Made by a program: the position numbers and the translations under genes. Source: Microvirga soli (GTDB lineage Bacteria; Pseudomonadota; Alphaproteobacteria; Rhizobiales; Beijerinckiaceae). Taken from it: a stretch of DNA of 64,000 nucleotides. The notes under the pieces were generated by a model. The model saw nothing but the letters and a program-made list of their open reading frames with translations. It did not search any database and was not told the origin of the DNA. The stretch covers positions 62,001 to 126,000 of the forward strand of contig NZ_JAERQE010000014.1 of NCBI RefSeq assembly GCF_016734765.1. Direction: 5' to 3'. Position 1 is the first letter of the stretch. Each line of letters begins with the position of its first letter. Positions 31,834-56,233 of this stretch are shown piece after piece.

Positions 31834-31910
31834 CAGGGTGGAAACAACGATTTTTACAGGGTATACCGCACCTGATGCTCCGGAGCCCGTTTCCGGACGG
31901 GAGAATCTGT

Positions 31911-33452
31911 TTGACGACTGCGCCCAACCTCACTGCCGTCTCGCCATGCTCGGATCAGACTTTCGAGCGCCTCGTAGATGCAGTGGCAGATTACGCGATC
32001 TGCATGCTTGACTTGCAGGGGCATGTCACCACCTGGAACACCGGAGCCGAGTATATTACCGGCTGGGGCAAGGACCAGGTTCTGGGCCGGCATTTCTCGA
32101 TTTTCCATACGCCCGAGGATCGGGCGGATGGCAAGGCTGACCGCGCACTCGAACTCGCCCATAAAACTGGCCGTTTCGAGGAACAGGGTATCCGAGTTCG
32201 TCAGGATGGCACCACTTTCCTGGCACATGTCAGCCTGACCCCATTGAAGGACGCAGCGGGGCAGTTGCTGGGCTATGCCAAGGTAACGCGCGACATCACC
32301 GAACGCGCTGCAGCTGAAGAAGCTCTCAAAACCCGTGAAGCGCATCTTCGTTCGATCCTGGAGACTGTGCCGGACGCCATGATCGTTATCGATGAGCAGG
32401 CGAGGATGCAGTTCTTCAGCGCCGCAGCCGAACGCCTGTTCAATTTTAAGGCGCAAGAAGTGATTGGTGAGAACATCAAGATTCTCATGCCAAATCCCTA
32501 CCGGGACCAGCATGACACTTATATGAGCCGCTATCTCACGACCGGTGAGCGCAAGATCATTGGAATCGGACGCGTAGTGGTCGGGCAGCGCAAGGATGGT
32601 TCCACGTTTCCTATGGAGCTTGCAGTCGGTGAAATGCGCTCCAGCGGCCAGCGTTACTTTACCGGATTTATCCGTGACCTGACGGAGCGCCAGAGAACTG
32701 AAGCCCGCCTGCAGGAGCTGCAATCCGAACTCGTTCACATGTCTCGCTTCACGGCTCTTGGCGAGATGGCTTCGACATTAGCCCACGAGATCAATCAGCC
32801 CCTCACGGCCATCGCCAATTACCTCAAGGGATGCCGCCGCATCCTCCAACGCATGGTAGGCGACGAAGTACCTATGCTGCAGAATGCGGTCAACGAGGCG
32901 GCCGACCAAGCCCTCCGGGCAGGCCAGGTCATCCGCCATCTGCGTGAGTTCGTGACCCGTGGCGAAAGCGAACGCCACATCGAGAACCTGCCTAAGCTCG
33001 TCGAGGAAGCAAGCGCACTGGCCCTGGTCGGCGCTAAGGAGAGAGACGTACGCGTCACCTTCAGTCTCGATCCCAATGCCTCTCTTGTGCTGGCGGATCG
33101 CATTCAGGTGCAGCAGGTCTTGCTGAACCTCATTCGCAATGCCATCGAGGCGATGCAGGATGCGCCGCAACGCGAACTCGTGGTGGCAACCAAAGCGCTG
33201 TCGAGCGACCACATGATTGAAGTCAGCGTCTCGGACACGGGCACCGGCATCGCACCTGAGATCATCAATCAACTATTCCAGCCGTTCATCACGACCAAGA
33301 AGCACGGCATGGGTGTCGGCCTTTCGATCTGCCGGACGATCATCGAGTCGCATGGCGGCAAGATCTGGGTTAAGTCGAAGCCGAACCAGGGCACCAGTTT
33401 CAGGTTTACCCTGCGATCTGTCAGTCAGGAGGAGTTGGCTAATGCCGAGTGA
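31911..33452 (+). CDS. fixL: Oxygen-sensing histidine kinase FixL
   Basis: Soluble haem sensor kinase, 513 residues from TTG 31911. PAS domain 1 is at about 15-130. PAS domain 2 (about 145-260) binds haem, with proximal H201 (in YRDQHDTY) and the signalling arginine R221 (in GIGRVV). The kinase core has phospho-acceptor H292 (HEINQP) and N, G1 and G2 boxes ([24 protein letters not shown]). TTG 31911 with GGGAG at 31899-31903 brings residue numbers within one of Bradyrhizobium FixL (H200, R220, H291); ATG 31875 is the alternative. It overlaps fixJ. Confidence 0.93.
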
Positions 33453-34068
33453 GGCTGTTGTACATGTGGTTGATGATGATCAGGCGGTACGCCAATCGCT
33501 TTCTTTCCTGCTCGCCTCAGACGGCCTGCCAGTGCGCCTTCACGAATCTGCCTCCTCGTTCCTGCAAAATGTGAGGGATGCATCGACCGGATGCATCATT
33601 ACCGATGTCCGCATGCCAGGGATCGACGGCATCGAGTTTCTACGTCGCCTGAAGGCAGGCGGCTTCAGGCTTCCTGTCATCGTCATGACAGGCCATGCGG
33701 ATGTCCCTTTGGCCGTTGAAGCCATGAAAGAGGGCGCGCTCGACTTTATCGAAAAGCCCTTCGACGACGATCTCTTTCTCGCAGCCGTCCGGGCCGCTCT
33801 GAAGCGCCAAGAGCAGAATGCTCACCAGGACGCCCAAGCCACCGAGATCAAAGCGCGGGCTCTCTCCCTTTCTGAGCGCGAGGCCCAGGTTCTGGAAGGT
33901 CTTGTCTCCGGCAAAGCCAACAAGGTCATTGCCTACGATCTCGGCATCAGCCCGCGTACGGTTGAAATCTATCGGGCAAACGTTATGAGCAAGATGCAGG
34001 CTTCAAGCCTCTCGGAGCTTGTCCGTATGGCTCTTCTGATCGGCCAGCGGTCCATCCCTGGTCCTTAA
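33442..34068 (+). CDS. fixJ: Response regulator FixJ
   Basis: 208-residue DNA-binding regulator activated by FixL. The receiver domain has the acidic pair DDD (11-13), phospho-aspartate D55 (TDVRMPG) and lysine in EKPF. The C-terminal LuxR-type helix-turn-helix includes [12 protein letters not shown] and [19 protein letters not shown] 33442 overlaps the fixL stop and has AGGAGGAG at 33428-33435. Its expected targets are the two genes downstream. Confidence 0.94.
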
Positions 34069-34081
34069 GGGAAATTCCTGA
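34066..34081. promoter_or_regulatory. Candidate FixJ operator upstream of the response-regulator gene
   Basis: TAAGGGAAATTCCTGA begins in the fixJ stop codon and shares 13 of 16 positions with TAAGGGATATCCCTTA at 34572-34587 before fixK. The distances to the downstream starts are similar (99 and 82 bp). Confidence 0.5.
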
Positions 34082-34179
34082 ATAGGAGAGAGCCTGCAAG
34101 TTGAGGCATATCAAGTCCTTAATTCCGTGGGTGGAGTAGGCCCAAGGTTCTCCAGCCAGGAATTGCGCAGGATCGTACC

Positions 34180-34557
34180 ATGCCGGTGAAATCAGGGCCG
34201 GTCATCGTCGTGGACGATGACGCGGCCGTCCGACAATCGTTGAAGTTTGCTCTCGAGATGGAGGGCCTGGACGTGCGCCTCTATGAGAGCGGCGACCAGC
34301 TCCTTGCCGATGTCGACCTGCCTGCAACCGGCTGCCTCGTCGTCGATTACTACATGCCGAAGATGAACGGGGTCGAGTTGATGGAGCGGCTCCGGCGACG
34401 TGCCGTCAAGCTCCCGGGCATATTGATCACAGCCAGAGCCACCAAGGATATGCAGAAGCGGGCGGTTCACTCCGGCTTTCGGCAGGTGCTGGAAAAGCCG
34501 CTTGAGGACAGCACCCTGATTGACAGCATTCTTGGGGCTCTCTCGCCTTCTGCTTAG
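34180..34557 (+). CDS. Single-domain response regulator
   Basis: 125 residues, a CheY-like receiver only. It has acidic residues VDDD, phospho-aspartate D56 (in VVDYYMP) and lysine in LEKP; no output domain is present. It sits between fixJ and fixK, a position also occupied by a receiver protein in Bradyrhizobium. It may compete for phosphate from FixL, or serve as a feedback brake in the way FixT does in other rhizobia; the mechanism is inference. Confidence 0.88.
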   Translation: MPVKSGPVIVVDDDAAVRQSLKFALEMEGLDVRLYESGDQLLADVDLPATGCLVVDYYMPKMNGVELMERLRRRAVKLPGILITARATKDMQKRAVHSGFRQVLEKPLEDSTLIDSILGALSPSA

Positions 34558-34569
34558 TGCCTGCGATCA

Positions 34570-34589
34570 CCTAAGGGATATCCCTTAGG
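34570..34589. promoter_or_regulatory. 20-bp perfect palindrome upstream of fixK, candidate FixJ operator
   Basis: CCTAAGGGATATCCCTTAGG is a perfect 20-bp palindrome 79 bp before the fixK start. The response-regulator gene upstream carries a similar sequence. FixJ is the likely binder, because fixK is its classical target. Confidence 0.6.
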
Positions 34590-34668
34590 GGAAGCATCTG
34601 AATTTTACGGCCCACCCCCCCAAGGTAATTCTGAGCTCACGTCAGACACAGAAGAAGACGAGAGTTCC

Positions 34669-35349
34669 ATGCAAACCGTCCACGCCTCAAGCATCTCCCA
34701 GCCCGCGCCTGCTATCCTTCTACGCAGTGTTCCCCTGCCGCGCCCGTCACAGGATACAGTCGCCCTAGGAGCCACACGCACTGTCGCCAAGGACGAAGAG
34801 ATTTTTGCCGAGGGAGACCGACCGGCCTTTTTCTACAAGGTGGTGACCGGCGCAGTGCGGACCTACAAGCTTCTCAGCGACGGACGGCGGCAGATTGATG
34901 CCTTTCACCTTCCTGGCGACATCTTTGGCCTTGAACCCGGTGAGGAACACCGCTTCACCGCCGAGGCACTCGGAGACACGACCGTCGTCCTCTACCGCCA
35001 CTGCAATCTTGGCGCATTAGCCCTGGATGGCGGAGAACTTTCCCGGCAGATCGTGACCGCAATGATGCGCTCGCTTGAGCACGCGCAAAATCACATGCTG
35101 CTTCTCGGACGCAAGAACGCGTTAGAGAAAGTCGCCACGTTCCTGCTCGCCATGTCGAAACGCGTTTCCAATGACGAACAGGTCGACCTCCCAATGTCGC
35201 GCCTCGACATCGCTGATCACCTAGGCCTGACCATCGAAACGGTCTCGCGTTCCTTGACCCAGCTGGAACGTAAGGGTGTTATCGATCTCCCCACACACCG
35301 TTCCATCGTCTTACGCGACAAAGAAGCCTTGGGGCAGCTGGATTCTTAA
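34669..35349 (+). CDS. fixK: FixK-type Crp/Fnr transcription regulator
   Basis: 226-residue regulator with a cyclic-nucleotide-like beta barrel (about 35-120), a dimer helix (about 125-160) and a helix-turn-helix (about 177-205) whose recognition helix contains E190-TVSR194, the FNR-type pattern that reads TTGAT. No N-terminal cysteine cluster is present, so it is FixK rather than an Fe-S FNR, and it depends on FixJ for oxygen control. Its single cysteine is in YRHCNL (C112). Targets in this window are hemN, ccoN and ccoG. Confidence 0.92.
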   Translation: MQTVHASSISQPAPAILLRSVPLPRPSQDTVALGATRTVAKDEEIFAEGDRPAFFYKVVTGAVRTYKLLSDGRRQIDAFHLPGDIFGLEPGEEHRFTAEALGDTTVVLYRHCNLGALALDGGELSRQIVTAMMRSLEHAQNHMLLLGRKNALEKVATFLLAMSKRVSNDEQVDLPMSRLDIADHLGLTIETVSRSLTQLERKGVIDLPTHRSIVLRDKEALGQLDS

Positions 35350-35494: not shown

Positions 35495-36292
35495 TCAAAT
35501 AATTGCACCAGCACCGGCTGCGATCAGTGTCCGTGTATCGGCTACGCTTGCGCGAGACGCAGCGGCGAGGAGGCGGACGTCGTTGGGGAGTGTCACTAGA
35601 TCGAAGCCCCAGCTTATGGCCTTTGCGGCGTAGGCCGGCGCACCGCAGTGAAGGGCGGCACGGATGCCAGTCCGATGGGCGGCATCGAGGATCTTGCGGA
35701 TCGCGTCTACCATCTCCGGTTCCTCCCGATCGAAACCGAAGGGGTATTGCCGCCCGGTCAGCCCAAGGGTCAGATCGGACGGGCCGATATAGATGCCGTC
35801 CAAGCCTGGGGTCGAAACGATCTCCTCAAGATTTTTAAATGCCTCAGCCGTTTCGATCATAGCGAAGCAGAGAACATAGTCATCTGCCTCCGCACCATAG
35901 TTTGATCCAGCGGAGAACACGGCCCGGGTCGGACCGAAGCTGCGGGTTCCTGCCGGAGGATAGCGCATGTACGACACAAGTTCGGCCGCTTCGGCCCCGC
36001 TGTTGATCATCGGGCAAATGACCCCGCAGGCTCCAGCGTCAAGCACCTTCATGATGGCGGCGGGATCGAGCCACGGAACACGCACGAGAGGCGCGACTTC
36101 ACTGGCGCGCATCGCCTGCAGCATGCTGACTGCAACCTGATAGTCGATGAGCCCATGCTGGAGGTCGATCGTGATGGAATCGTATCCCTGCTCCGCCAGA
36201 ATCTCGGCCGTAAACGCATTCGGAATTGAGAGCCAGCCATTTAGTACCGGCTTGTTGTCCGCCCATAGCGACTTAATCCTGTTCGCTTTCAT
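35495..36292 (-). CDS. HpcH/HpaI-family class II aldolase
   Basis: 265-residue aldolase of the HpcH/HpaI (2-keto-3-deoxy acid aldolase) family. Typical features are the divalent-metal and pyruvate-binding motifs DLQHG, MIET (metal-ligand glutamate) and YIGPSDLTL. It should cleave a 2-keto-3-deoxy sugar acid to pyruvate plus an aldehyde, as in RhmA, YfaU or GarL. It is the last gene of the Tct operon, 87 bp after the RraA-family gene, fitting the final step of the proposed sugar-acid pathway. Confidence 0.88.
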   Translation of the reverse strand: MKANRIKSLWADNKPVLNGWLSIPNAFTAEILAEQGYDSITIDLQHGLIDYQVAVSMLQAMRASEVAPLVRVPWLDPAAIMKVLDAGACGVICPMINSGAEAAELVSYMRYPPAGTRSFGPTRAVFSAGSNYGAEADDYVLCFAMIETAEAFKNLEEIVSTPGLDGIYIGPSDLTLGLTGRQYPFGFDREEPEMVDAIRKILDAAHRTGIRAALHCGAPAYAAKAISWGFDLVTLPNDVRLLAAASRASVADTRTLIAAGAGAII

Positions 36293-36379
36293 CTCGCCTC
36301 CAAATGACCTACACCTTGCGCTTGGAGCGTAAGGCGTTTTGCAGACTCGTCATGTTGTCGCTCTTCGTCAACCATCCAA

Positions 36380-37099
36380 TCAGCGGCCCGTTCTCTCGCG
36401 CCAAGCTGCAAAGTCGATGCTGGCCTGCTCGTCCGTGGCCGGATAGAGGCCCAGGATGGAACGCCCCTTCAGGACCTCCTCGGTCACGAAATCCTCGAAC
36501 GCCGTCATCTCGACCGTCTCATCTGCGATCTCGTCAGCCAGGTGAGCCGGAATCACCACCACGCCTTCGGCATCGCCGACGATGACGTCGCCGGGGAACA
36601 CCGGCGCATCGCCGCAGCCGATCGGCACGTTGATGTCGATGGCTTGGTGCAGGGTCAAGTTGGTCGGGGCGGATGGACGATTGTGATAAGCTGGAATCCC
36701 AAGGCTCTCGATCTCGGGCGTATCGCGAAAGCCGCCGTCGGTGACCACGCCGGCAACGCCCCGCACCATCAAGCGGGAGATCAAGATCGAGCCGGCCGAG
36801 GCCGCACGCGGGTTCTTGCGGCTGTCCATGACGAGAACCGCCCCCGGAGGGCAGATCTCTACCGCCTTACGCTGCGGATGCTCACGGTCCCTGAAGACGC
36901 TCAGCTGGTTCAGGTCCTCACGAGCCGGCATGTAGCGCAGCGTGAAGGCCTCGCCCACCATCGGGCCAGCATCGCGGTTGATGCGGTGGACGTCCTGGAT
37001 CCACTGGTTGCGCAGCCCGCGCTTGTAGAGAGCCGTCATCAGCGTAGGGGTCGCGACTTTCTTGAGCTTCTCGCAGGTCTCAGACTTCAGTCCGGTCAT
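36380..37099 (-). CDS. RraA-family protein (possible aldolase or decarboxylase)
   Basis: 239-residue protein of the RraA/HMG-aldolase family. Family motifs include VMDSRKNPRAASAGSILI, DGGFRDTPEI (conserved Arg-Asp that holds the metal and pyruvate moiety) and GDAEGVVVIP. Members cleave 4-hydroxy-4-methyl-2-oxoglutarate or decarboxylate oxaloacetate, or act on sugar-derived keto acids. AGGAG is 8 bp before the ATG. It lies between the dehydratase and the aldolase genes, and its exact step in this pathway is unknown. Confidence 0.85.
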   Translation of the reverse strand: MTGLKSETCEKLKKVATPTLMTALYKRGLRNQWIQDVHRINRDAGPMVGEAFTLRYMPAREDLNQLSVFRDREHPQRKAVEICPPGAVLVMDSRKNPRAASAGSILISRLMVRGVAGVVTDGGFRDTPEIESLGIPAYHNRPSAPTNLTLHQAIDINVPIGCGDAPVFPGDVIVGDAEGVVVIPAHLADEIADETVEMTAFEDFVTEEVLKGRSILGLYPATDEQASIDFAAWRERTGR

Positions 37100-37117
37100 T
37101 GGTGCATCTCCTGGAAC

Positions 37118-38857
37118 TTAGAAAATATCGGGCTCGGCCACGGGTGCGCCGTGGCTTGTTTCGAGGAAATCGAAGTCGCAACCCTCATGAGCTTGGCGGA
37201 TATGCTTGGTAAACATCCAGCCGTAGCCACGCTCAAAACGCGGCTTGCGCTCCGGCAGCAGGGCGCGTCTCAATTCGAGCTCCTCGTCGGCGACTTCGAG
37301 GGTGATGCGGCGAGCCGGAATATCGACAGAGATGATGTCGCCTGTGCGTACGAGGGCGAGTGGCCCGCCCACATGCGCCTCGGGCGACACGTGAAGGATG
37401 CATGCGCCGTAGCTCGTGCCACTCATGCGGGCGTCCGACAGGCGTAGCATGTCACGCACGCCCTGCCTCACGAGCTTCTTCGGAATCGGCAGCATGCCCC
37501 ATTCCGGCATTCCAGGGCCGCCCTGGGGGCCCGCATTGCGCAGGACCAAGATATGATCAGCCGTCACATCGAGATCGTCGTCATCGATGGCGGCCTTCAT
37601 GGAAGGATAGTCGTCGAAGACGAGAGCTGGTCCCGAATGTTGGCGTAACCGCGGCTCGCAGGCGCTCGGCTTCATGACGCAACCATCCGGCGCCAGATTG
37701 CCCTTGAGGACGGCGAGCGCGCCTTCCTCGTAGATGGCGTTGTCCACGTTGCGGATGACATCGTCGTTATAGACCTCTGCGCGTGCGATGTTCTCGCCGA
37801 GCGTCCTGCCCGTCACCGTGAGACAATCAAGATGAAGATGCCCGCTGATGCGCGTCATCAACGCCGGCAACCCGCCGGCGAAGTAGAAGTCTTCCATCAG
37901 ATAGGCCGCACCGCTCGGGCGGACGTTCGCGATCACCGGGACCTTGCGGCTGGCGATCTCGAAATCGTCGAGGCCGATATCGTGCCCGGCCCGGCGCCCC
38001 ATGGCGATCAGGTGAATCACGGCATTGGTGGAGCAGCCCATGGCCATGGCGACCGCGATGGCGTTCTCGTAAGCTGGACGGGTCTGGACCTTGCCCGGTG
38101 TGAGATCCTCCCACACCATTTCGACAGCGCGTCGGCCCGCCTCTGCACACATGCGGATGTGATTGACGTCGGCGGCAGGGATAGAGGAAGCACCCGGCAG
38201 CGTCATGCCGACGGACTCTGCAATGGCCGTCATGGTGCTGGCGGTGCCCATGGTCATGCAGTGGCCGTGGCTACGGGCGATGCCGCCTTCGACCTCCACC
38301 CAATCCTCCTTGGTGATGTTGCCGGCCCGGCGCTCATCCCAATATTTCCAGGCATCGGAGCCGGAGCCGAGGGTCTTACCCTTCCAGTTGCCGCGCAGCA
38401 TGGGACCAGCCGGAATGTAGATCGTCGGCAGGTTGGCGCTCGTTGCACCCAGCAGAAGGCCAGGCGTGGTCTTGTCGCAGCCACCCATGAGGACCACGCC
38501 GTCAACCGGGTGAGAGCGGATGAGCTCTTCCGTGTCCATGGCCAGCATGTTGCGGTAGAGCATGGTGGTCGGTTTGACGAAGTTCTCTGACAGAGAGATC
38601 GCAGGCAGTTCGATGGGAAAGCCGCCGGCCTGGAATACGCCGCGCTTCACGTCCTCGACCCGCTGCTTGAAGTGGGAGTGGCAAGGGTTGATGTCGGACC
38701 AGGTGTTGATGATCGCAATGATAGGGCGCCCGACCCAGTCCTCGGGAGCATAGCCCATCTGCATGATCCGGGACCGGTGGCCGAAGCCACGCAGGTCGTC
38801 GGGAGCGAACCATCGCGCGCTACGAAGATCTTCGGGCTTTTTGGTCTTGGTTGTCAT
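37118..38857 (-). CDS. IlvD/Edd-family sugar-acid dehydratase
   Basis: 579-residue iron-sulfur dehydratase. Cluster cysteines are C59 (NPCHSHF), C127 (GGCDKTTPG) and C200 (SHGHCMTMG). Length and pattern match aldonate dehydratases (arabinonate/xylonate type) more than dihydroxyacid dehydratase of valine synthesis. It would convert an aldonate to its 2-keto-3-deoxy form. It is encoded between tctA and the RraA-family gene on one transcript. I used ATG 38857; GTG 38866 is an alternative. A second member of the family lies at 54468. Confidence 0.9.
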   Translation of the reverse strand: MTTKTKKPEDLRSARWFAPDDLRGFGHRSRIMQMGYAPEDWVGRPIIAIINTWSDINPCHSHFKQRVEDVKRGVFQAGGFPIELPAISLSENFVKPTTMLYRNMLAMDTEELIRSHPVDGVVLMGGCDKTTPGLLLGATSANLPTIYIPAGPMLRGNWKGKTLGSGSDAWKYWDERRAGNITKEDWVEVEGGIARSHGHCMTMGTASTMTAIAESVGMTLPGASSIPAADVNHIRMCAEAGRRAVEMVWEDLTPGKVQTRPAYENAIAVAMAMGCSTNAVIHLIAMGRRAGHDIGLDDFEIASRKVPVIANVRPSGAAYLMEDFYFAGGLPALMTRISGHLHLDCLTVTGRTLGENIARAEVYNDDVIRNVDNAIYEEGALAVLKGNLAPDGCVMKPSACEPRLRQHSGPALVFDDYPSMKAAIDDDDLDVTADHILVLRNAGPQGGPGMPEWGMLPIPKKLVRQGVRDMLRLSDARMSGTSYGACILHVSPEAHVGGPLALVRTGDIISVDIPARRITLEVADEELELRRALLPERKPRFERGYGWMFTKHIRQAHEGCDFDFLETSHGAPVAEPDIF

Positions 38858-38911
38858 AGGACTCACGTCGTGCCTGTGATGTCGATGTGTTTGGGATCAA
38901 TGGGCGGGGGC

Positions 38912-40417
38912 TCAGCCTTCCTCCTGGAAGGCTTCTTCACGCTTCTGGCGGACAGCCGGAGCCAGCACCGTTGCAAGGAGGATGAACGCCAGGATCAGCA
39001 TCGTCGCGCTGATCGGACGGCCCAGAAAAACCATGGTATCGCCTTTGGAGATCAGCATGGCCCGGCGCAGATGCTCCTCCATCATCGGGCCGAGGATGAA
39101 CCCGAGCAGCATGGGAGCCGGCTCGCAATCGAGCTTGCGGAAAATGTATCCCAGGAACCCGAAGATCGCCATCAGGTAGACGTCGAAGGTTGCATTGTTG
39201 AGGCTGAACACGCCAATGGCGCAGAAGACCAGGATAGCCGGGTACAGGAAGTGATATGGCACCGAGATCATCCGCACCCACAGCCCGATCAGCGGCAGGT
39301 TGAGGACGAGCAGGAATAGGTTGCCGATCCACATGGAGACGATGAGGCCCCAGAACAGCACCGGCTGCTCGGTCATCACCGAAGGGCCTGGCTGGATGCC
39401 CTGCATGATCATCGCGCCGATCATGAGAGCCATGACGGGATTGGACGGGATACCGAGCGTCAGCATGGGAATGAAAGACGTCTGCGCGCCGGCGTTGTTG
39501 GCGCTCTCCGGTCCCGCCACCCCCTCGATGGCACCCTTGCCGAACTGCTCAGGCGTACGGGAGACCTTCTTCTCCAGGGTATAGGCCGCGAACGAAGCGA
39601 GCATGGCACCGCCGCCCGGAAGAATGCCGAGCATGGATCCCAAAATTGTCCCGCGCAGGATGGGCGCCGCAATCCTCTTCAGGTCTTCTCTCGTCGGCAT
39701 GAGCCCCGTCACGCTTTTGAGCACCGCCGTGCGGGTCGCTTCGTTCTCTAGATTGCCGATGATTTCTCCAAGTCCGAAAACGCCCATGGCGACAACGACG
39801 AAATTGATCCCGTCGGCAATCTGCGGGAAGCCGAATGTGTAACGGGTCGTGCCAGAATTCACGTCGGTTCCGATCAGTCCCAGGATGAGGCCGAGGATGA
39901 TCATGCCGAAAGCATGCAGCAGCGAGCCATGTGCCAGCACAACCGAAGCGACAAGGCCTAGCACCATCAGGGAAAAGTATTCGGCAGGACCGAACTGCAA
40001 GGCAAGATCCGCCAATGGAGGTGCGAAGACGGCAAGAAGCACAGTCGCGACAGTGCCGGCGAAGAAGGAGCCGATGGCAGCCGTCGCCAGCGCCTTGCCC
40101 GCCTTGCCCTGGCGAGCCATCTGGTAGCCGTCGAGCGCGGTCACAACGCTCGATGATTCACCCGGCAGGTTGACCAGGATTGCAGTGGTGGAGCCACCAT
40201 ATTGCGCGCCGTAGTAGATGCCGGCCAGCATGATCAGCGCCGAGACCGGCGGCAGGCCGAAGGTGACAGGCAGCAGCATGGCAATGGTGGCCGTCGGCCC
40301 AAGGCCGGGCAGCACACCGATTGCAGTGCCGAGGAGCACGCCCGTCATGCAATAGGTCAGGTTCCAGAACGTCAGGGCGGTTTCAAGACCAAGCCACAAG
40401 TTGGAGATCGTTTCCAT
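38912..40417 (-). CDS. tctA: Tripartite tricarboxylate transporter large permease TctA
   Basis: 501-residue multi-span permease of the TTT family. The conserved N-terminal motif GTAIGVLPGLGPTATIAMLL and the later GILPGGGAMLASF are characteristic. It uses an ion gradient to move an organic acid delivered by TctC. It starts 9 bp after tctB. In this operon the substrate is probably a sugar acid, inferred from the enzymes that follow. Confidence 0.94.
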   Translation of the reverse strand: METISNLWLGLETALTFWNLTYCMTGVLLGTAIGVLPGLGPTATIAMLLPVTFGLPPVSALIMLAGIYYGAQYGGSTTAILVNLPGESSSVVTALDGYQMARQGKAGKALATAAIGSFFAGTVATVLLAVFAPPLADLALQFGPAEYFSLMVLGLVASVVLAHGSLLHAFGMIILGLILGLIGTDVNSGTTRYTFGFPQIADGINFVVVAMGVFGLGEIIGNLENEATRTAVLKSVTGLMPTREDLKRIAAPILRGTILGSMLGILPGGGAMLASFAAYTLEKKVSRTPEQFGKGAIEGVAGPESANNAGAQTSFIPMLTLGIPSNPVMALMIGAMIMQGIQPGPSVMTEQPVLFWGLIVSMWIGNLFLLVLNLPLIGLWVRMISVPYHFLYPAILVFCAIGVFSLNNATFDVYLMAIFGFLGYIFRKLDCEPAPMLLGFILGPMMEEHLRRAMLISKGDTMVFLGRPISATMLILAFILLATVLAPAVRQKREEAFQEEG

Positions 40418-40426
40418 GGCCCGCCC

Positions 40427-40888
40427 CTACTCGCCAAACCAGGAGCCGACGAGCGGCAGAGGCACGCCAAGAGCCTTGACGAAAACGACGGTGCAGAACG
40501 CCACCAGGAGGATCAATCCGGCGACAGCCTTGGGGTCCAGGCGGAAATATTGGCTCGCGAAGGCGCTGGTCAGAATGAGGACAGTGAGGGCGACGACCAA
40601 GCCCGCCGTAGGGAGCAGCAGCCCGAAGAGAGCCACCGAGCCGACGACGAGCGCCAGAGGCTTCCAGGCGATGGCGCCGACAGGTTGACCCTCCTGACGA
40701 AAAGCGCGCGCTGCGGAGAGCAGGCCGATCAGCATGAGGATGACGCTGAGCACGGAAGGGAAATAGCCTGCTCCCATGCGCCCTGCCGTGCCCATCGGAT
40801 AATCCCGGCCGATCCAGAAGGCGGCGGCCCCGAAGGCGATGTAGAGCACGCCAGCCCAAAAATCTTTCTTCTGGAGCACGTGTGACAT
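40427..40888 (-). CDS. tctB: Tripartite tricarboxylate transporter small permease TctB
   Basis: 153-residue membrane protein with about four spans, the usual form of TctB. The early motif WIGRDYPMGTAGRMGAGYFP is typical of the family. ATG 40888 with AGGAGGA upstream is preferred over GTG 40891. It sits between tctC and tctA. Confidence 0.9.
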   Translation of the reverse strand: MSHVLQKKDFWAGVLYIAFGAAAFWIGRDYPMGTAGRMGAGYFPSVLSVILMLIGLLSAARAFRQEGQPVGAIAWKPLALVVGSVALFGLLLPTAGLVVALTVLILTSAFASQYFRLDPKAVAGLILLVAFCTVVFVKALGVPLPLVGSWFGE

Positions 40889-41042
40889 CACGAGCGTCCT
40901 CCTGGTGCAATGAAGATGAGCGCTTCGCCATCACCTCAGCGCGCACGATGGCTGCACAAGGACCGGACGAAAGGCGACGCTCTGAGCAATCTCAAAATGT
41001 CAGGATGTGGAGCAGCCAGGACGGCTGCCCCACGAGGCTGGA

Positions 41043-42014
41043 TTATTGGTCAGCCGTGATCTTGCCGGTTTCGACAACAGTCTTCCAGCGACTGATTTCC
41101 TGGTTCAGGAAATCCGAGAATTGGCCGCTCGTGTTGGCGACGACCTCGAAGCCGATGTCGTTGAACTTGCCCTTCACGTCGGGCGAGTTCAATGCGGAGA
41201 TCAGGGACTGTTCGAGCTTGCTCTTCACATCGGCCGGGAGTCCTTTCGGGGCTGCGACGGCCTGCCAGGAATAAACTTCGACTCCCTCGACGCCAGCCTC
41301 TTTCATAGTCGGTGCATCCGAGAAGGTGGGGTTCCGCTTCTCAGCCGTAACGGCCAAAAGCTTCAGCTTTCCGGCCTTGATATGGTTCGACACGGCGCCG
41401 AGGTTCTGGAACGACACGTCGGCGTGGCCGCCGATCAAATCAGTGATAGCGGGAGCGCCACCCTTGTAGGGCACATGGACGCCGGTGGTGCCGGTCTTCT
41501 GCCAGAACAGAGCCGCCGTAAGATGGTCAGACGAGCCCGCTCCGGACGAGGCGAATGTCACCTTCTCAGGGTTCTTCTTGAGATGCTCGACAAGCTCCTT
41601 GACGTTGTTGGCCGGAAAATTCGGGTTGGCCACGAGAACGTTCGGCGTGCGCACGGCCACCGTGAGCAGGTCGAAATCCTTGGTCGGGTCGTAAGGCAGG
41701 CTCTTGTAGAGAACCGGGTTGATGGCATAGACGCCGATTGAACCGACGATTAGGGTGTAGCCATCGGCCTTGGCCTTCGCGACCTGCCCTGCACCGAGGG
41801 AGCCATTAGCGCCAGGCTTGTTCTCAACGACGATGGGCTGCCCCAGGCTTTCCTGCATCTTCTGGGTGGTCACGCGAGCCGTCGTGTCGGATGCGCCACC
41901 TGCCGGGAACGGCACCACCACCGTGACAGGCTTTTCCGGATAGCCGGCAGCGAATGCTGGTGCAGAGATCGCGATGCCCAGAACTGCGGCAGATAACAGC
42001 TTCAGCGACTTCAT
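41043..42014 (-). CDS. tctC: Tripartite tricarboxylate transporter substrate-binding protein TctC (Bug family)
   Basis: 323-residue periplasmic receptor. The signal peptide MKSLKLLSAAVLGIAISA ends at AFA-A. The mature part begins YPEKPVTVVVPFPAGG, the standard Bug-family opening that binds the carboxylate of the ligand. AGGAGGA lies 5 bp before ATG 42014; a longer frame reaches into the promoter. It is the first gene of the transport operon and is followed by a gap of about 150 bp before tctB. Confidence 0.93.
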   Translation of the reverse strand: MKSLKLLSAAVLGIAISAPAFAAGYPEKPVTVVVPFPAGGASDTTARVTTQKMQESLGQPIVVENKPGANGSLGAGQVAKAKADGYTLIVGSIGVYAINPVLYKSLPYDPTKDFDLLTVAVRTPNVLVANPNFPANNVKELVEHLKKNPEKVTFASSGAGSSDHLTAALFWQKTGTTGVHVPYKGGAPAITDLIGGHADVSFQNLGAVSNHIKAGKLKLLAVTAEKRNPTFSDAPTMKEAGVEGVEVYSWQAVAAPKGLPADVKSKLEQSLISALNSPDVKGKFNDIGFEVVANTSGQFSDFLNQEISRWKTVVETGKITADQ

Positions 42015-42105
42015 GCGCTTCCTCCTATGATTTGCGTCAGGTGTTGTTACCCGTCTGTGCGGGCTTGCGGCTGGATGTCCCAGCAAGAACATTGGCGACT
42101 AAAAC

Positions 42106-42119
42106 GCTAATGCATTAGC
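42106..42119. promoter_or_regulatory. Palindromic operator between tctC and gntR
   Basis: GCTAATGCATTAGC is a perfect 14-bp palindrome. A second partial copy, CTAATGCA, is at 42135-42142. They lie in the divergent promoter region and are the natural binding sites for the GntR protein encoded at 42200. Confidence 0.7.
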
Positions 42120-42199
42120 CTGTCAACTTGTATTCTAATGCAAATTTTTGATGTAATACTGCCCGGCAATTGGGCCGCAGCCCATAGGAAGGACAGGAG

Positions 42200-42898
42200 A
42201 TGGATACCTTGACGGTGACTTCATTGCGGCCCCGGGACAGGTCACGCCATGCGGCTCCTCAGGTTTTCGAGTATCTGCGAGAAGCCATCCTCGCCCTCAC
42301 CCTCGCCCCGGGAACGGTGCTGAACCGCCTCACCCTCCAGAAGGAATTCGGCCTTAGCTCGACGCCGATCCGGGACGCTCTCCTGAAGCTCCAGGAGGAG
42401 GGTTTGGTGGAAATTTTCCCGCAGCATGCGACCGTCGTCAGTCCAATCGACCTGACGCTTGCTCATCAGGCGCATTTCCTTCGCCGTTCTTTGGAACTTG
42501 AGATCGTCAGGACCCTGGCGCTCACGCCCGATCAGAGGCTGATCGCGAGGCTCCACGGCTTCCTGGCTCAACAGCAGGCCCTGATGGAGGCTGAAGATTT
42601 CGAAGTTTTCGCCGCAGCGGACCAGGACTTCCATCAGCATCTCTATGAGGCTGCGCAGATGCAGGAACTCTGGGTTCTCGTGCGCAGCCGCAGCGGACAT
42701 ATCGATCGTCTACGCCGACTGCACCTTCCTACTCCGGGCAAGGCTCAAAACATTGTGCATCATCACAGGCTGATCGTGCAGGCCATTGCCGACGGCAAAC
42801 CCGAGGAAGCACAGAAGCATCTCCGGGAGCACCTCTCAGGCACATTGTCCCATATCGATGAGATCAAAGCCAAGTATCCCGGGTACGTCCGAGTCTAG
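42200..42898 (+). CDS. GntR/FadR-family transcription regulator (FCD domain)
   Basis: 232-residue regulator. The N-terminal winged helix (about 20-80) has LNRLTLQKEFGLSSTPIRDAL, and the C-terminal all-helical FCD domain has metal/ligand residues (for example DFHQHLY and HHHRLIV). It is divergent from the tct operon with palindromic operators between, so it probably represses the operon and responds to the imported acid or a pathway intermediate. Confidence 0.9.
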   Translation: MDTLTVTSLRPRDRSRHAAPQVFEYLREAILALTLAPGTVLNRLTLQKEFGLSSTPIRDALLKLQEEGLVEIFPQHATVVSPIDLTLAHQAHFLRRSLELEIVRTLALTPDQRLIARLHGFLAQQQALMEAEDFEVFAAADQDFHQHLYEAAQMQELWVLVRSRSGHIDRLRRLHLPTPGKAQNIVHHHRLIVQAIADGKPEEAQKHLREHLSGTLSHIDEIKAKYPGYVRV

Positions 42899-43050
42899 GC
42901 AACGACCAAGCCTAGAGATGATATTGCCCAAGCAGACATGCGGTCGGATTGATCTGCCGTGGGAACGGCCTTACGAGGGATTGGGCACGTACAGCCAATC
43001 TGCCTGCTATCGTGTCGAATCAACCGAAGGCATGTGCTGAGAGCGGACTC

Positions 43051-44067
43051 ATGAAGAAGATCGGATTTCTGTCGTTCGGACATTGGTCGCCTTCGCCCCA
43101 ATCACAGACGCGAACCGCCCGTGACACCCTCCTTCAATCGATTGACCTTGCCGTGGCGGCGGAAGAGCTTGGCGCGGACGGCGCCTATTTTCGTGTCCAT
43201 CACTTCGCGCGCCAGCTCGCCTCGCCTTTTCCGCTGCTGGCAGCCGTCGGCGCGAGGACCAGCCGCATCGAGATCGGCACGGCCGTCATCGACATGCGCT
43301 ACGAAAACCCTCTCTACATGGCCGAGGATGCAGGCGCGGCCGATCTGATCAGCGGCAGCCGTCTTCAGCTCGGCATCAGCCGCGGCTCACCCGAGCAGGT
43401 GATCGATGGCTGGCGGTACTTCGGTTATGCGCCCGAGGAGGGCCAGAGCGATGCCGACATGGCCCGCCAACATGCGGAGGTGTTTCTGAACATCCTCAAA
43501 GGTGAGGGTTTTGCCCAGCCGAACCCGCGCCCGATGTTTCCGAACCCTCCCGGCCTGCTGCGCCTTGAGCCACACTCGGAGGGCCTGCGAGAGCGCATCT
43601 GGTGGGGGGCTGCCTCCGATGCCACGGCCGCATGGGCCGCACAACACGGCATGAACCTCCAGAGCTCGACCCTGAAGGAGGACGAGACAGGCGAACCCTT
43701 CCACGTTCAGCAGGCCAAGCAGATCCGCCGCTACAGGACAGCCTGGAAAGAGGCGGGACACATCCGCGAGCCACGCGTCTCGGTCTCACGCTCAATCTTC
43801 GCCCTCGTGGACGACCGCGACCGCGCCTATTTCGGCCGCGGCAACGACAGTGACCAAATCGGCATCATCGACAACATGCGCGCCATCTTCGGCCGCTCGT
43901 ATGCTGCCGAGCCAGACCGGCTCGTGGAAGAACTCAAGGCCGACGAGGCGATTGCAGAGGCCGATACCCTGCTTCTGACTGTACCGAACCAGCTTGGCGT
44001 CGATTATAACGCCCATGTCATCGAGGCTATCCTGAAGCATGTCGCGCCAGCCCTAGGCTGGCGGTGA
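43051..44067 (+). CDS. LLM-class flavin-dependent monooxygenase
   Basis: 338-residue luciferase-like (FMN-dependent) oxidoreductase. Family patterns are present: an N-terminal strand KKIGFLSFGHW, then AAEELGADGAYFRVHHF, and GSRLQLGISRGSP. ATG 43051 was chosen because homology begins there, while a longer frame starts in the gntR tail. It could oxidise an aliphatic, thiol or aromatic compound; nothing nearby shows the substrate. Confidence 0.88.
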   Translation: MKKIGFLSFGHWSPSPQSQTRTARDTLLQSIDLAVAAEELGADGAYFRVHHFARQLASPFPLLAAVGARTSRIEIGTAVIDMRYENPLYMAEDAGAADLISGSRLQLGISRGSPEQVIDGWRYFGYAPEEGQSDADMARQHAEVFLNILKGEGFAQPNPRPMFPNPPGLLRLEPHSEGLRERIWWGAASDATAAWAAQHGMNLQSSTLKEDETGEPFHVQQAKQIRRYRTAWKEAGHIREPRVSVSRSIFALVDDRDRAYFGRGNDSDQIGIIDNMRAIFGRSYAAEPDRLVEELKADEAIAEADTLLLTVPNQLGVDYNAHVIEAILKHVAPALGWR

Positions 44068-49776: not shown

Positions 49777-50742
49777 TCAATTGGACCGGGATCGAACAGA
49801 TGCCGCCGACAACCCCCGCTGCAAGACAATGAATGCGAACAGGAGAGCACCGATGGCAATTTTCGTCCACCAGGAACTTAAGGTCCCCTCGAAGGTAATG
49901 TACGTCTGGATCAACCCCTGGATCAGCACGCCGACCAACGTACCGATGATTGTCCCATAGCCACCTGTCAGCAACGTGCCGCCGATTACCACCGCTGCGA
50001 TGGTGTCGAGTTCGACCCCGGTCGCAGCCAGGGAATAGCCTGCGGAGGTGTAGAAGGAAAAGACAATTCCCGCCAGGGCGGCGAGAAGGCTCGACAGCAT
50101 GTAGATCCGGATCGTGGTCTTCCCTACGGGAACACCCATCAGTTCGGCCGAGTTTCGGTTGCCACCGAGTGCATAAACATTGGCGCCGAACCGCGTGAAG
50201 TGGGCCAAGACGATGCCGGCCGCGAAGGTCAGGAGCATGACGATGGCAATGAAGGTCAGCCTGCCTCCGCCCGGGAGCGTAAAGGAAATGTCGGTAATCT
50301 GGCCATAGGCGGGGGCATTGATCGGGATCGAATCCGTGGTGAGCACGAAACAGAGGCCGCGAGCCAGGAACATGCCCGCCAACGTCACGATGAAGGCCGG
50401 GATCTGAAAAGCATGGATCAGGAAACCCATGGCGGCTCCAAAGAGCGCGGCCAGGCCGAGGATGAGGATGAAGGCCAGGTATGGGTTGAGACCATACCGC
50501 TCGATGACCACCGCCAGGAAGACGCCCGTGAAGGCGATCACCGAGCCGACCGAGAGGTCGATGCCGCCGGACAGGATCACGAAGGTCATGCCGACAGCGA
50601 CGATGCCGAGAAAGGCATTGTCCGTCAGGAGATTGCCGATCACACGCGTCGAGGCGAAGCTCGGAAACTGGGCGAGGCAGATCAGGTAGCCGGCGATGAA
50701 AACGGCGAGCGTGATGAGAACCGGGAGATGACGCCTGATCAT
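49777..50742 (-). CDS. yjfF: Sugar ABC transporter permease, YjfF-like
   Basis: 321-residue CUT2 permease with about eight or nine spans and the family loop GIDLSVGSVI. It is the second membrane subunit; ATG 50742 overlaps the YtfT stop as ATGA. With YtfT it would form the heterodimeric channel of a galactofuranose/arabinose-type importer. Confidence 0.88.
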   Translation of the reverse strand: MIRRHLPVLITLAVFIAGYLICLAQFPSFASTRVIGNLLTDNAFLGIVAVGMTFVILSGGIDLSVGSVIAFTGVFLAVVIERYGLNPYLAFILILGLAALFGAAMGFLIHAFQIPAFIVTLAGMFLARGLCFVLTTDSIPINAPAYGQITDISFTLPGGGRLTFIAIVMLLTFAAGIVLAHFTRFGANVYALGGNRNSAELMGVPVGKTTIRIYMLSSLLAALAGIVFSFYTSAGYSLAATGVELDTIAAVVIGGTLLTGGYGTIIGTLVGVLIQGLIQTYITFEGTLSSWWTKIAIGALLFAFIVLQRGLSAASVRSRSN

Positions 50743-51743
50743 GCCTTTGCCTTCCAGACGGAACGGATGGCCGACAGAACCGGCGATTGGGCGAGCAGCA
50801 CGGCAAGCACGACGATGGCTTTCACGATGAGGTTGTACTCGGGAGGGTAGCCGCTCAGCAGGATGCCGGTGTTCATAGCTTGGATGATGAGCGCACCGAC
50901 GACCGAGAGACCAAGACTGAACCGGCCGCCGAACAAGGAGGTGCCGCCGATCACCACGGCGAGAATGGCATCGAGCTCAAGCCACAAGCCCGCATTGTTG
51001 GCATCCGCTCCACGGATATCGGCCGTGACGATGAGGCCCGCGATGGCAGCACAGAGGCTGCACCACATATAGACTGAGATGGTGACAGCCTTGGTGCCGA
51101 TCCCCGCGTAGGCGCTGGACCTGTTATTGGCTCCGATGGATTCGATGAAAAGCCCGAGTGCGGTGTACCGAACCACGAGGTGGGTCACGAGCAGCATCAC
51201 GAGGGCAATGACAACCGGCATCGGCAGCATCAGGAAGGATCCCCCGCCGATCACGGCAAAGCCTTCGCTCACGAAGGTGATGATCTGACCTTCCGTAACA
51301 AGCTGCGCAAAGCCGCGCCCGGCCACCATCAGGATCAGGGTTGCCACAAAGGGCTGGATTTCAAGAACGGCAACAAGGATCCCGTTCCAAAGGCCGCAGA
51401 GAAGGCCGACGCCGGCAGCGGCCGCGAATGCGACGGGAAGCGGATGGCCCTGAGCCGTCAGAGTTGCGGCCACGGCCCCTGCAATCGCCATGACGGCCCC
51501 GACGGAGAGATCGATCCCTCTTGTGGCGATGACGAGTGTCATGCCCAATGCGAGAATAGCGACGGGCGCGGCTCTGTTCAGCACATCGACGAGACTGCCG
51601 AACAGCCGCCCATCCTGCAGCCGCAGGGCAAAGAAGTCGCGGAAGACGAGCCAGTTGACGAGAAAGACGATCAGGAGCGCCGCAACCTGCGGCAGCCCCT
51701 TGGGTATGGTGCGTGGAGCAATGGCCTGGATCATGCCGCTCAT
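50739..51743 (-). CDS. ytfT: Sugar ABC transporter permease, YtfT-like
   Basis: 334-residue CUT2 permease. The loop TRGIDLSVGAVMAIAG is the family hallmark, followed by several hydrophobic spans. It starts directly next to the ATPase stop and overlaps YjfF. Two distinct permeases in one operon is the arrangement of the E. coli ytfQRT-yjfF set. Confidence 0.88.
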   Translation of the reverse strand: MSGMIQAIAPRTIPKGLPQVAALLIVFLVNWLVFRDFFALRLQDGRLFGSLVDVLNRAAPVAILALGMTLVIATRGIDLSVGAVMAIAGAVAATLTAQGHPLPVAFAAAAGVGLLCGLWNGILVAVLEIQPFVATLILMVAGRGFAQLVTEGQIITFVSEGFAVIGGGSFLMLPMPVVIALVMLLVTHLVVRYTALGLFIESIGANNRSSAYAGIGTKAVTISVYMWCSLCAAIAGLIVTADIRGADANNAGLWLELDAILAVVIGGTSLFGGRFSLGLSVVGALIIQAMNTGILLSGYPPEYNLIVKAIVVLAVLLAQSPVLSAIRSVWKAKA

Positions 51744-53252: not shown

Positions 53253-53304
53253 CACGCCCTCGCATGCACACGCGCAAAACCGCCGAAGCTTGGCGGGTCT
53301 ATAT

Positions 53305-53330
53305 GGCAGCAGGCAAACCTGCCTGCTGCC
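53305..53330 (-). terminator. Hairpin between ytfQ and ytfR, likely attenuator
   Basis: GGCAGCAGGC (53305-53314) and GCCTGCTGCC (53321-53330) pair perfectly over 10 bp around a 6-nt loop, just after the binding-protein stop. It should reduce expression of membrane subunits relative to the receptor, as in other sugar operons. Confidence 0.65.
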
Positions 53331-53347
53331 GCTTATGCCTTACGATC

Positions 53348-54310: not shown

Positions 54311-54370
54311 GCGTTCTCTCCCTCAATTTGTCGTTGCTCTTCGACTTTAGCAGCCTTAACAGCTGCCTAT

Positions 54371-54388
54371 TAGTAGTATTATATGAAT
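54371..54388. promoter_or_regulatory. Candidate operator between ytfQ and the arabinonate dehydratase gene
   Basis: TAGTAGTATTATATGAAT is, on the opposite strand, 15/18 identical to the site upstream of chvE at 10305-10322. It lies in the divergent promoter region, so one protein could control both directions. The co-encoded GntR/FadR protein is the candidate binder. Confidence 0.45.
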
Positions 54389-54467
54389 TGATGAGAGCGC
54401 CTATACAACCAAAGTCGTGGGGTCCTAGCCCCATCTGGATGGCGCGGCAGTGTCAAAGGCGAGCACG

Positions 54468-56201: not shown

Positions 56202-56233
56202 AGAACGGCACCACAATCATGAAGGAAGAGACC

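Follow-up and report, generated by a model that had tools for sequence, protein, structure and literature searches.

Organization of the locus

Analysis of a 64,000-nt stretch of the Microvirga soli genome (hereafter the window; genome size 6.25 Mb) identified an operon in which the genes of a tripartite tricarboxylate transporter (TTT) are followed by those of an IlvD/Edd-family dehydratase (IlvD), an RraA-like protein and an HpcH/HpaI-family aldolase (HpaI), and which very probably serves to import and break down a sugar acid. From the open reading frames (ORFs), the order on the minus strand is tctC-tctB-tctA-IlvD/Edd-RraA-HpaI, with the gene of a GntR/FCD regulator diverging from it. An earlier note on this DNA had described these genes at positions 35495-42898, and all of them were found there as ORFs, with each of the seven proteins scoring above the curated cut-offs of a Pfam search. 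The features of the locus are listed below.

42200..42898, plus strand: GntR-family regulator with an FCD domain (Pfam FCD 82.6 bits, GntR 48.8 bits)
42135..42142: half-site CTAATGCA, adjoining the operator candidate
42106..42119: palindromic operator candidate GCTAATGCATTAGC, between regulator and operon
41043..42014, minus strand: TctC, periplasmic solute-binding protein of the TTT (Pfam TctC 260.6 bits)
40427..40891, minus strand: TctB, small membrane subunit (Pfam TctB 58 bits)
38912..40417, minus strand: TctA, large membrane subunit (Pfam TctA 548 bits)
37118..38866, minus strand: IlvD/Edd-family sugar-acid dehydratase (Pfam ILVD_EDD N 352 bits, C 218 bits)
36380..37099, minus strand: RraA-like protein of the PRK08245 subfamily (Pfam RraA-like 107 bits)
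35495..36292, minus strand: HpcH/HpaI-family class II pyruvate aldolase, final gene of the operon (Pfam HpcH_HpaI 111 bits)

Calculated from these coordinates, the gap between tctC and tctB is 151 bp and those that follow are 9, 45, 18 and 87 bp, and co-transcription of the six minus-strand genes is plausible. A simple scan of the operon gave numbers of promoter-like and terminator-like sequences that were not above those of shuffled sequence (1 versus a mean of 1.8 and 4 versus 5.6, respectively).

Conservation of the IlvD-RraA core

A GTDB genome scan with the RraA-like protein of the window matched at least 593 stretches, at least 520 of them being relatives. The loci compared here are those of the best 80 of these at least 520 relatives, with both the neighbour counts and the clade test described below resting on this chosen sample; 13 of the 80 loci had less than 4 kb of flanking sequence on one side, making the neighbour counts lower bounds. 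Among the matches listed, the closest RraA relatives were those of other Microvirga (97% for M. lupini and M. pakistanensis).

Within 6 kb of RraA, an IlvD was found at 68 of the 80 loci, on the same strand as RraA (IlvD identity 64-97%), a TctC at 24, a TctA at 11 and an HpaI at 9. With a stricter threshold and a distance of 5 kb, HpaI was present at 8 of the 80 loci, six of which belong to close Microvirga relatives; the HpaI proteins of the other two were 32% and 35% identical, with one encoded on the opposite strand. Bradyrhizobium and others were found to use an ABC transporter (solute-binding protein at 24, ATPase at 25 and permease at 23 of the 80 loci). As IlvD lies near RraA at 68 of the 80 loci and HpaI at 8, the conserved core is composed of IlvD and RraA, with HpaI being optional and both the transporter type (TTT or ABC) and the later enzymes differing between loci. 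On these counts, the cleavage to pyruvate and an aldehyde that the earlier note had suggested is unlikely to be the core route.

Other genes were also found to accompany the core. An SMP-30-family lactonase (Pfam SGL 169 bits), apparently exported judging by eye from its N-terminus, was located beside it at 20 of the 80 loci, and at one betaproteobacterial locus the genes of RraA, a DHDPS-family protein, an FAH-family protein and a dehydrogenase were arranged in a row. Five Bosea loci (L016, L017, L018, L021 and L026) were observed to possess RraA with no IlvD nearby. The RraA gene there forms a row with genes for TctC, TctA and a DHDPS-family protein and with a small gene in the TctB position, and PdxA-like and SAF-domain-like genes were recognized by eye. 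Perhaps these encode a different pathway that shares the RraA step.

The RraA-like protein as a predicted enzyme

The RraA-like protein (239 residues) passed the NCBIfam model of the PRK08245 subfamily (NF006093, 342 versus a cut-off of 208 bits), which carries the name hypothetical protein, and failed the model of the RNase E regulator (NF006875, 37.7 versus 136 bits). It was also matched by positions 268-495 of a 501-position NCBIfam model of the FAH family, with a score of 193 bits that is below cut-off. The best AlphaFold model had a mean predicted local distance difference test score of 85.8, with two of the five models reaching only 58 and 49. The best PDB matches in Foldseek were RraAS2 (5x15), 5ir2 (titled cellulase), 3k4i (uncharacterised) and 3noj, a 4-hydroxy-4-methyl-2-oxoglutarate/4-carboxy-4-hydroxy-2-oxoadipate (HMG/CHA) aldolase, with the fold match to the latter having an E value of 7e-15 and an identity of 22%.

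In a HMMER alignment with 3noj, residues R125, D126 and G103 of the window protein were found to align with R123, D124 and G101 of the HMG/CHA aldolase, with E202 corresponding to E199 by ungapped extension of three residues past the alignment. These four residues were invariant across all 80 loci. In the HMG/CHA aldolase a metal-binding Asp and Glu and an enolate-stabilising Arg have been described (PMC5065237). The residues that mark a class II pyruvate aldolase or decarboxylase, namely these same three, are all present in the window protein. A motif of G-X20-R-D-X2-E/D was reportedly given for other RraA-like enzymes by Mazurkewich in 2014; the protein of the window has S-X20-R-D-X2-E.

FlDet of Flavobacterium sp. 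UMI-01 (237 residues) is an RraA-like protein for which a reaction with such an acid has been demonstrated: in 2021 the purified recombinant protein was shown to convert 2-keto-3-deoxy-hexarate to a product whose mass is that of alpha-ketoglutaric semialdehyde (KGSA) (PMC8563752). The earlier note had considered that a sugar-acid TTT system with an RraA step would be new; an RraA step on a keto-deoxy sugar acid is, however, already known from FlDet. Of the 19 published N-terminal residues of FlDet, 12 were identical in the window RraA and 7 to 13 in the proteins of the 80 loci. In comparison, 20,000 shuffles of the first 40 residues of the window protein averaged 4.1 identities and never exceeded 9, and four RraA paralogues of the same genome had 3, 4, 6 and 4. 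The RraA-like protein of the window is therefore predicted to be a metal-dependent enzyme acting on a 2-keto-3-deoxy acid and resembling FlDet. It may perform a chemical step that we found to have been shown only once before, for FlDet. A role as an RNase regulator was rejected, the protein having failed the corresponding model, being linked to IlvD at 68 of the 80 loci and having invariant active-site residues.

The IlvD/Edd dehydratase and its relatives

A tree of the dehydratases was built that included 66 operon IlvDs, these being that of the window and those of 65 of the 68 loci with IlvD; matches shorter than approximately 450 residues were excluded, and translated matches were cleared of stop signs and gaps. 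The three [2Fe-2S] cysteines and the catalytic serine, placed by motif, were kept in all 66 of these proteins, the equivalent cluster cysteines and catalytic serine of the R. leguminosarum enzyme being Cys59, Cys127, Cys200 and Ser480 (PMC9795676). The 66 operon IlvDs were found to form one clade (support 1.0), with 5j83, the R. leguminosarum L-arabinonate dehydratase, and 8ej0 lying outside it (46.7% and 48.5% identical to the operon IlvD, respectively). Columns that separate the operon IlvDs from the arabinonate dehydratases were found but could not be mapped to substrate-pocket positions.

The two solved enzymes were instead grouped (support 0.94) with a second IlvD of the window (54450-56201), which is 72% identical to 8ej0 and 64% to 5j83. 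In the surrounding region (49777-57172), genes of a sugar ABC transporter on the minus strand were observed to diverge from this IlvD and from a DHDPS-like gene (56219-57172; 94 bits to the dapA model, below cut-off), and the region looks like a canonical non-phosphorylative L-arabinose locus. Given these identities and the accompanying DHDPS-like gene and sugar ABC transporter, L-arabinonate is probably handled at this second locus.

The operon IlvD passes the NCBIfam model for L-arabinonate dehydratase (NF009559) with 1077 versus 882 bits. This model was found to accept also 5j83 (990 bits) and the IlvD of an apparent sulfoquinovose locus (929 bits), and was narrowly missed by the second IlvD of the window (864 versus 882 bits). 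The model was thereby observed to accept dehydratases of at least three lineages and yet to miss the best L-arabinonate candidate of the window, and its name misleads. Taking this name as the function of the operon IlvD was rejected, since the model also accepts the IlvD of the apparent sulfoquinovose locus and the enzyme of proven activity groups elsewhere in the tree.

In that tree, the operon IlvD was placed closest to another IlvD of the same genome, that of the apparent sulfoquinovose locus at C33 (58.7% identity, support 0.97). The cluster at C33:113000-128000 (L098) was observed to hold genes for a GH31 protein, an aldose-epimerase-like protein, an SMP-30-like protein (by eye), an SDR, the IlvD (L098:6314-8047) and an HpaI-family aldolase, together with an ABC transporter and a TauE-like membrane protein (by eye). 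The GH31 protein scored 1145 bits against 5ohs (Alpha-glucosidase yihQ) and 754 bits against 5aed (also named sulfoquinovosidase). The enzyme families of the sulfo-Entner-Doudoroff (sulfo-ED) pathway match those of this cluster, with the substrate of the pathway's dehydratase bearing a second negative charge (PMC9594981), and the cluster looks like a sulfo-ED locus.

The HpaI aldolase and a candidate semialdehyde dehydrogenase

The closest solved relatives of the operon HpaI were chains named HpcH/HpaI aldolase or hydroxyketoacid aldolase (217 bits). The protein carries the HpcH/HpaI family motifs DLQHG, RVP, IET and GPSDL, which together with its Pfam score (111 bits) place it in that family. 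It fell below the NCBIfam cut-off for GarL, the 2-keto-3-deoxy-glucarate aldolase (124 versus 407 bits).

A gene for an aldehyde dehydrogenase was found to start 25-115 bp downstream of RraA at 11 of the 80 loci (one of Microvirga, one of Noviherbaspirillum, eight of Bradyrhizobium and one of an alphaproteobacterial metagenome-assembled genome), with the best NCBIfam scores of this protein being those for KGSA and 2,5-dioxovalerate dehydrogenases (515 bits, below their cut-offs). In M. makkahensis (L004) the gene lies between those of RraA and HpaI. Microvirga soli possesses a 94% identical copy away from the operon, beside an FAH-family gene, with this FAH-dehydrogenase pair being 57% and 71% identical to that of L022. 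Co-regulation of the distant dehydrogenase by the operator of the window was considered and rejected, as the best site at its locus (L097) had 4 mismatches.

A conserved candidate operator upstream of the GntR regulator

A GntR homologue was identified within 6 kb of RraA at 46 of the 80 related loci. The operator candidate of the window has a 12-base core, CTAATGCATTAG, of which one exact copy exists in the 6.25-Mb genome. For 45 GntR homologues of the related loci having at least 150 bp of upstream sequence, this core was searched for over an upstream stretch of 300 bp. It was found with no more than two mismatches in 40 of them (21 exact, 8 with one mismatch and 11 with two), with the remaining 5 having it at 3 to 6 mismatches. 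The controls, namely the first 300 bp of the 45 GntR coding regions and 45 shuffled upstream regions, never gave better than 3 mismatches. The site was absent at L028, L039 and L067, where the regulator is in the other orientation, and at L045. This provides strong evidence, at the level of sequence conservation, for CTAATGCATTAG as a conserved operator, in agreement with the clear palindromic operator that the earlier note had reported at the GntR gene.

Across the Microvirga soli genome, no enrichment of the core was found at up to two mismatches (40 sites versus 127 for the reversed pattern), for which reason only the exact site carries weight; its single occurrence suggests that the regulon comprises one operon here. 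Among the sites with two mismatches, many remain perfect palindromes, an example being CACTAATATATTAGTG. Such palindromic variants, in which the centre GC is replaced by AT, were observed at L009, L012, L025, L037, L042, L044, L058, L062 and others, and it is possible that these palindrome-keeping changes of the centre are a record of co-evolution between operator and regulator.

The tripartite tricarboxylate transporter

TctA, TctB and TctC are encoded together in the order C-B-A, as expected of a TTT. For TctC, whose ORF is open to 42092, a start at 42014 was preferred, giving a protein of 323 aa with a signal peptide recognized by eye; five orthologous ORFs of Microvirga encode 349, 352, 323, 323 and 323 aa. 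Its nearest solved relatives were 2dvz (BugE, 241 bits), a terephthalate-binding protein (236 bits) and BugD (227 bits), which bind diacids according to PMC5812351 and to the names of the chains. TctC proteins of 67-71% identity were found to accompany the core at three loci outside Microvirga as well (L009, L012 and L031). The genome of Microvirga soli gave 15 TctC-family matches in all.

A TTT for a sugar acid, which the earlier note had considered would be new together with an RraA step, has been proposed before: Leyn et al. predicted in 2017 a TTT for galactarate/glucarate, with three TTT systems being predicted for sugar acids (PMC5507952), and such predictions are also found in Table 1 of the 2018 review of Rosa (PMC5812351). 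According to the same review, the TTT ligands known by 2018, with the exception of nicotinic acid, possess two carboxylic or comparable groups. In 2026 a paper described a TTT for alginate oligosaccharides, the binding protein of which was tested with these by isothermal titration calorimetry; D-glucarate is also named there as a TTT substrate, with reference to other work (PMC13390454).

Neighbouring genes

The region at 31875-35349, which adjoins the operon and is convergent with it, was observed to encode a sensor kinase, response regulators and a Crp/Fnr-type regulator (FixL-FixJ-FixK-like, by eye). Downstream of the GntR gene, a luciferase-like monooxygenase (Pfam 99 bits) is encoded at 42949-44067; it is probably unrelated to the operon, as no match covering half of this protein was found in the 80 related loci at an E value of 1e-8.

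Proposed pathway and alternative explanations

The reading that we favour, tentatively and with somewhat less than an even chance of being right, is one of uptake by the TTT, dehydration by IlvD and conversion by RraA to KGSA, with HpaI providing an alternative cleavage and the substrate possibly being an aldarate. The operon would be substrate-induced, with the GntR/FCD regulator sitting on CTAATGCATTAG and blocking transcription as long as neither the acid nor an intermediate is bound to it. TctC would take up the acid in the periplasm for import by TctAB, as is typical of the family, and the dehydratase, whose catalytic residues are present, would remove water to yield a 2-keto-3-deoxy acid. 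RraA would then act as a metal-dependent dehydratase, with an added decarboxylation in the case of a hexarate, to give KGSA in the manner of its apparent relative FlDet. A semialdehyde dehydrogenase, for which the enzyme encoded in the M. makkahensis operon and its copy elsewhere in Microvirga soli are candidates, would complete the route to alpha-ketoglutarate. HpaI, found with the core mainly in Microvirga, could perform a side cleavage of the same intermediate to pyruvate and an aldehyde. Several weak lines, namely the substrate of FlDet, the IlvD relative at the apparent sulfoquinovose locus and the nearest solved relatives of TctC, give a slight preference to an aldarate, which is charged at both ends, over a simple aldonate. 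Also in favour of the proposed route are the pairing of IlvD with RraA at 68 of the 80 loci, the KGSA-type dehydrogenase gene after RraA at 11, the invariant RraA residues, the N-terminal match to FlDet, the separate L-arabinonate-type IlvD of the window and the betaproteobacterial row of RraA, DHDPS, FAH and dehydrogenase genes. The sugar-acid pathway of the earlier note is thus upheld with regard to the TTT, the IlvD/Edd dehydratase, the GntR regulator with its conserved operator and an aldolase of the pyruvate type, and is not upheld with regard to its novelty or to HpaI as a conserved step.

A number of observations weigh against this reading. The comparison with FlDet covers 19 residues only, a short stretch that does not prove orthology, and FlDet was inactive on 2-keto-3-deoxygluconate, 2-keto-3-deoxy-6-phosphogluconate, 4-deoxy-L-erythro-5-hexoseulose uronate and 4-hydroxy-2-oxoglutarate, with no pentonate intermediate among the substrates tried (PMC8563752), so that the activity of FlDet would carry over to the window protein only with a hexarate as substrate or after a shift in specificity. 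EDTA was also without effect on FlDet (PMC8563752), which fits poorly with a strict need for metal, and a class II aldolase role fits the same RraA residues. At six loci RraA adjoins a DHDPS-family gene that possibly already serves to make KGSA. The dehydrogenase follows RraA at only 11 of the 80 loci and is absent from the Microvirga soli operon, with its distant locus in that genome being without the operator. For the dehydratase, the literature consulted gave no example of an IlvD/Edd enzyme that acts on an aldarate, and the NCBIfam model that it passes is that of an aldonate enzyme, L-arabinonate dehydratase. The SMP-30 lactonases fit aldonates as well.

A possible, if on balance improbable, alternative is the aldonate route suggested by the earlier note, in which the TTT imports a pentonate or hexonate, IlvD converts it to a 2-keto-3-deoxy acid and HpaI releases pyruvate and glycolaldehyde or glyceraldehyde, with RraA being accessory. 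Two solved aldopentonate dehydratases of the IlvD/Edd family accept both pentonates and hexonates (PMC9795676), NCBIfam names the dehydratase L-arabinonate dehydratase, the best matches of the operon HpaI among solved chains are those given above, named as HpcH/HpaI or hydroxyketoacid aldolases, and the lactonases at 20 of the 80 loci would suit an aldonolactone. However, HpaI lies within 5 kb at only 8 of the 80 loci as opposed to the 68 at which RraA and IlvD occur together, a separate L-arabinonate-type dehydratase exists in the same window, and the NCBIfam name, since it also covers the IlvD of the apparent sulfoquinovose locus, does not fix the substrate. Less probable still is a role of RraA as the main class II pyruvate aldolase for the 2-keto-3-deoxy acid, with the aldehyde dehydrogenase that adjoins it at other loci oxidising the released aldehyde (e.g. 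glycolaldehyde or tartronate semialdehyde). The Arg, Asp and Glu known from the active site of the HMG/CHA aldolase are invariant at all 80 loci, the fold matches 3noj and most RraA homologues are described as likely class II pyruvate aldolases (PMC5065237), but HpaI would then be redundant in Microvirga, though both are kept. Furthermore, FlDet, the nearest characterised relative by N-terminus, is a dehydratase/decarboxylase (PMC8563752), and the dehydrogenase scores best with those of the KGSA type.

Very unlikely is a sulfonated aldonate (e.g. 6-sulfogluconate) as the substrate, which would make the operon a transporter-fed branch of the sulfo-ED pathway. The closest IlvD paralogue of the genome does sit in a locus of the sulfoquinovosidase type, together with an HpaI-family aldolase, mutarotase, lactonase and SDR, and a sulfolactate TTT is given in the table of Rosa 2018 (PMC5812351). 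However, the operon is without a sulfoquinovosidase, a sulfoquinovose dehydrogenase of the SDR type and a lactonase, its HpaI is only 32% identical to that of the C33 locus, its IlvDs form a clade of their own (66 of 66, support 1.0), and RraA is not among the sulfo-ED enzymes named in the available part of PMC9594981. Finally, that RraA is an RNase E regulator sitting by chance in a metabolic operon is hardly credible. The family name and the fold match to RraA proteins speak for it, yet the residues for metal and enolate binding are invariant at 80 of 80 loci, the protein has 239 residues as opposed to 161-183 in four classical RraA-like chains (2pcn, 1j3l, 3c8o and 1nxj), it fails the model of the regulator (38 versus 136 bits), and both its linkage to IlvD at 68 of the 80 loci and the precedent of FlDet point to an enzyme.

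Wider implications

It is doubtful, though conceivable, that the core represents a widespread proteobacterial aldarate route, undescribed in the literature searched, in which an IlvD/Edd enzyme acts on a hexarate and an RraA-type dehydratase/decarboxylase then forms KGSA. In a literature search covering only part of the literature, no published description of an IlvD-RraA core was found, and FlDet (PMC8563752) was the only case found that connects RraA with KGSA. Were the route to exist, a further protein family making KGSA in proteobacterial sugar-acid catabolism would stand beside DHDPS and FAH, and interchangeable transporters (TTT and ABC) would operate under one conserved CTAATGCATTAG switch. 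Relatives of the RraA-like protein are common (at least 520 from one genome scan), and relatives of FlDet have been annotated as RNase activity regulators (PMC8563752). If these proteins are sugar-acid enzymes, a large set of genes gains a function, and the adjoining dehydratase needs a better name than L-arabinonate dehydratase. The conserved operator offers a ready reporter for finding the natural substrate.

Comparison with known systems

In outline, the operon resembles the predicted TctABC operons for galactarate/glucarate of Halomonas (PMC5507952), which likewise combine a TTT with sugar-acid enzymes under a GntR regulator. These differ in that RraA is absent from the main text of that source, and they are a prediction and not an assay. 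With 5j83, the L-arabinonate dehydratase of R. leguminosarum, and with the dehydratase 8ej0, the operon IlvD shares the IlvD/Edd family and the conserved cysteines and serine, and 5j83 passes the same NCBIfam model, but both lie outside the operon clade. The apparent sulfo-ED cluster has in common with the operon an IlvD/Edd dehydratase, which is the nearest paralogue of that of the operon, and an HpaI-family aldolase. It differs in possessing a sulfoquinovosidase, mutarotase, lactonase and SDR, with no TTT or RraA seen in the C33 cluster; the absence of an SDR and a lactonase from the operon places it outside the sulfo-ED systems.

Regarding RraA, the HMG/CHA aldolase shares with the window protein its fold and the active-site Gly, Arg, Asp and (by extension) Glu. 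However, the aldolase has an Asp directly after the pocket glycine, a position held by Ser-104 in the window protein and by Ser, Gly or Ala among the relatives listed; identity is only 22%, and the aldolase acts in an aromatic-acid pathway. FlDet is RraA-like and of similar size (237 versus 239 residues), shares 12 of 19 N-terminal residues and precedes a KGSA dehydrogenase (PMC8563752). The two proteins are also similarly distant from third parties, with FlDet being 26% and the window protein 27% identical to a Streptomyces RraA protein, and 20% and 22%, respectively, to the HMG/CHA aldolase. FlDet differs in belonging to alginate catabolism, where its substrate comes from the oxidation of 4-deoxy-L-erythro-5-hexoseulose uronate (PMC8563752) and not from an IlvD dehydratase, as is proposed for the operon of Microvirga soli.

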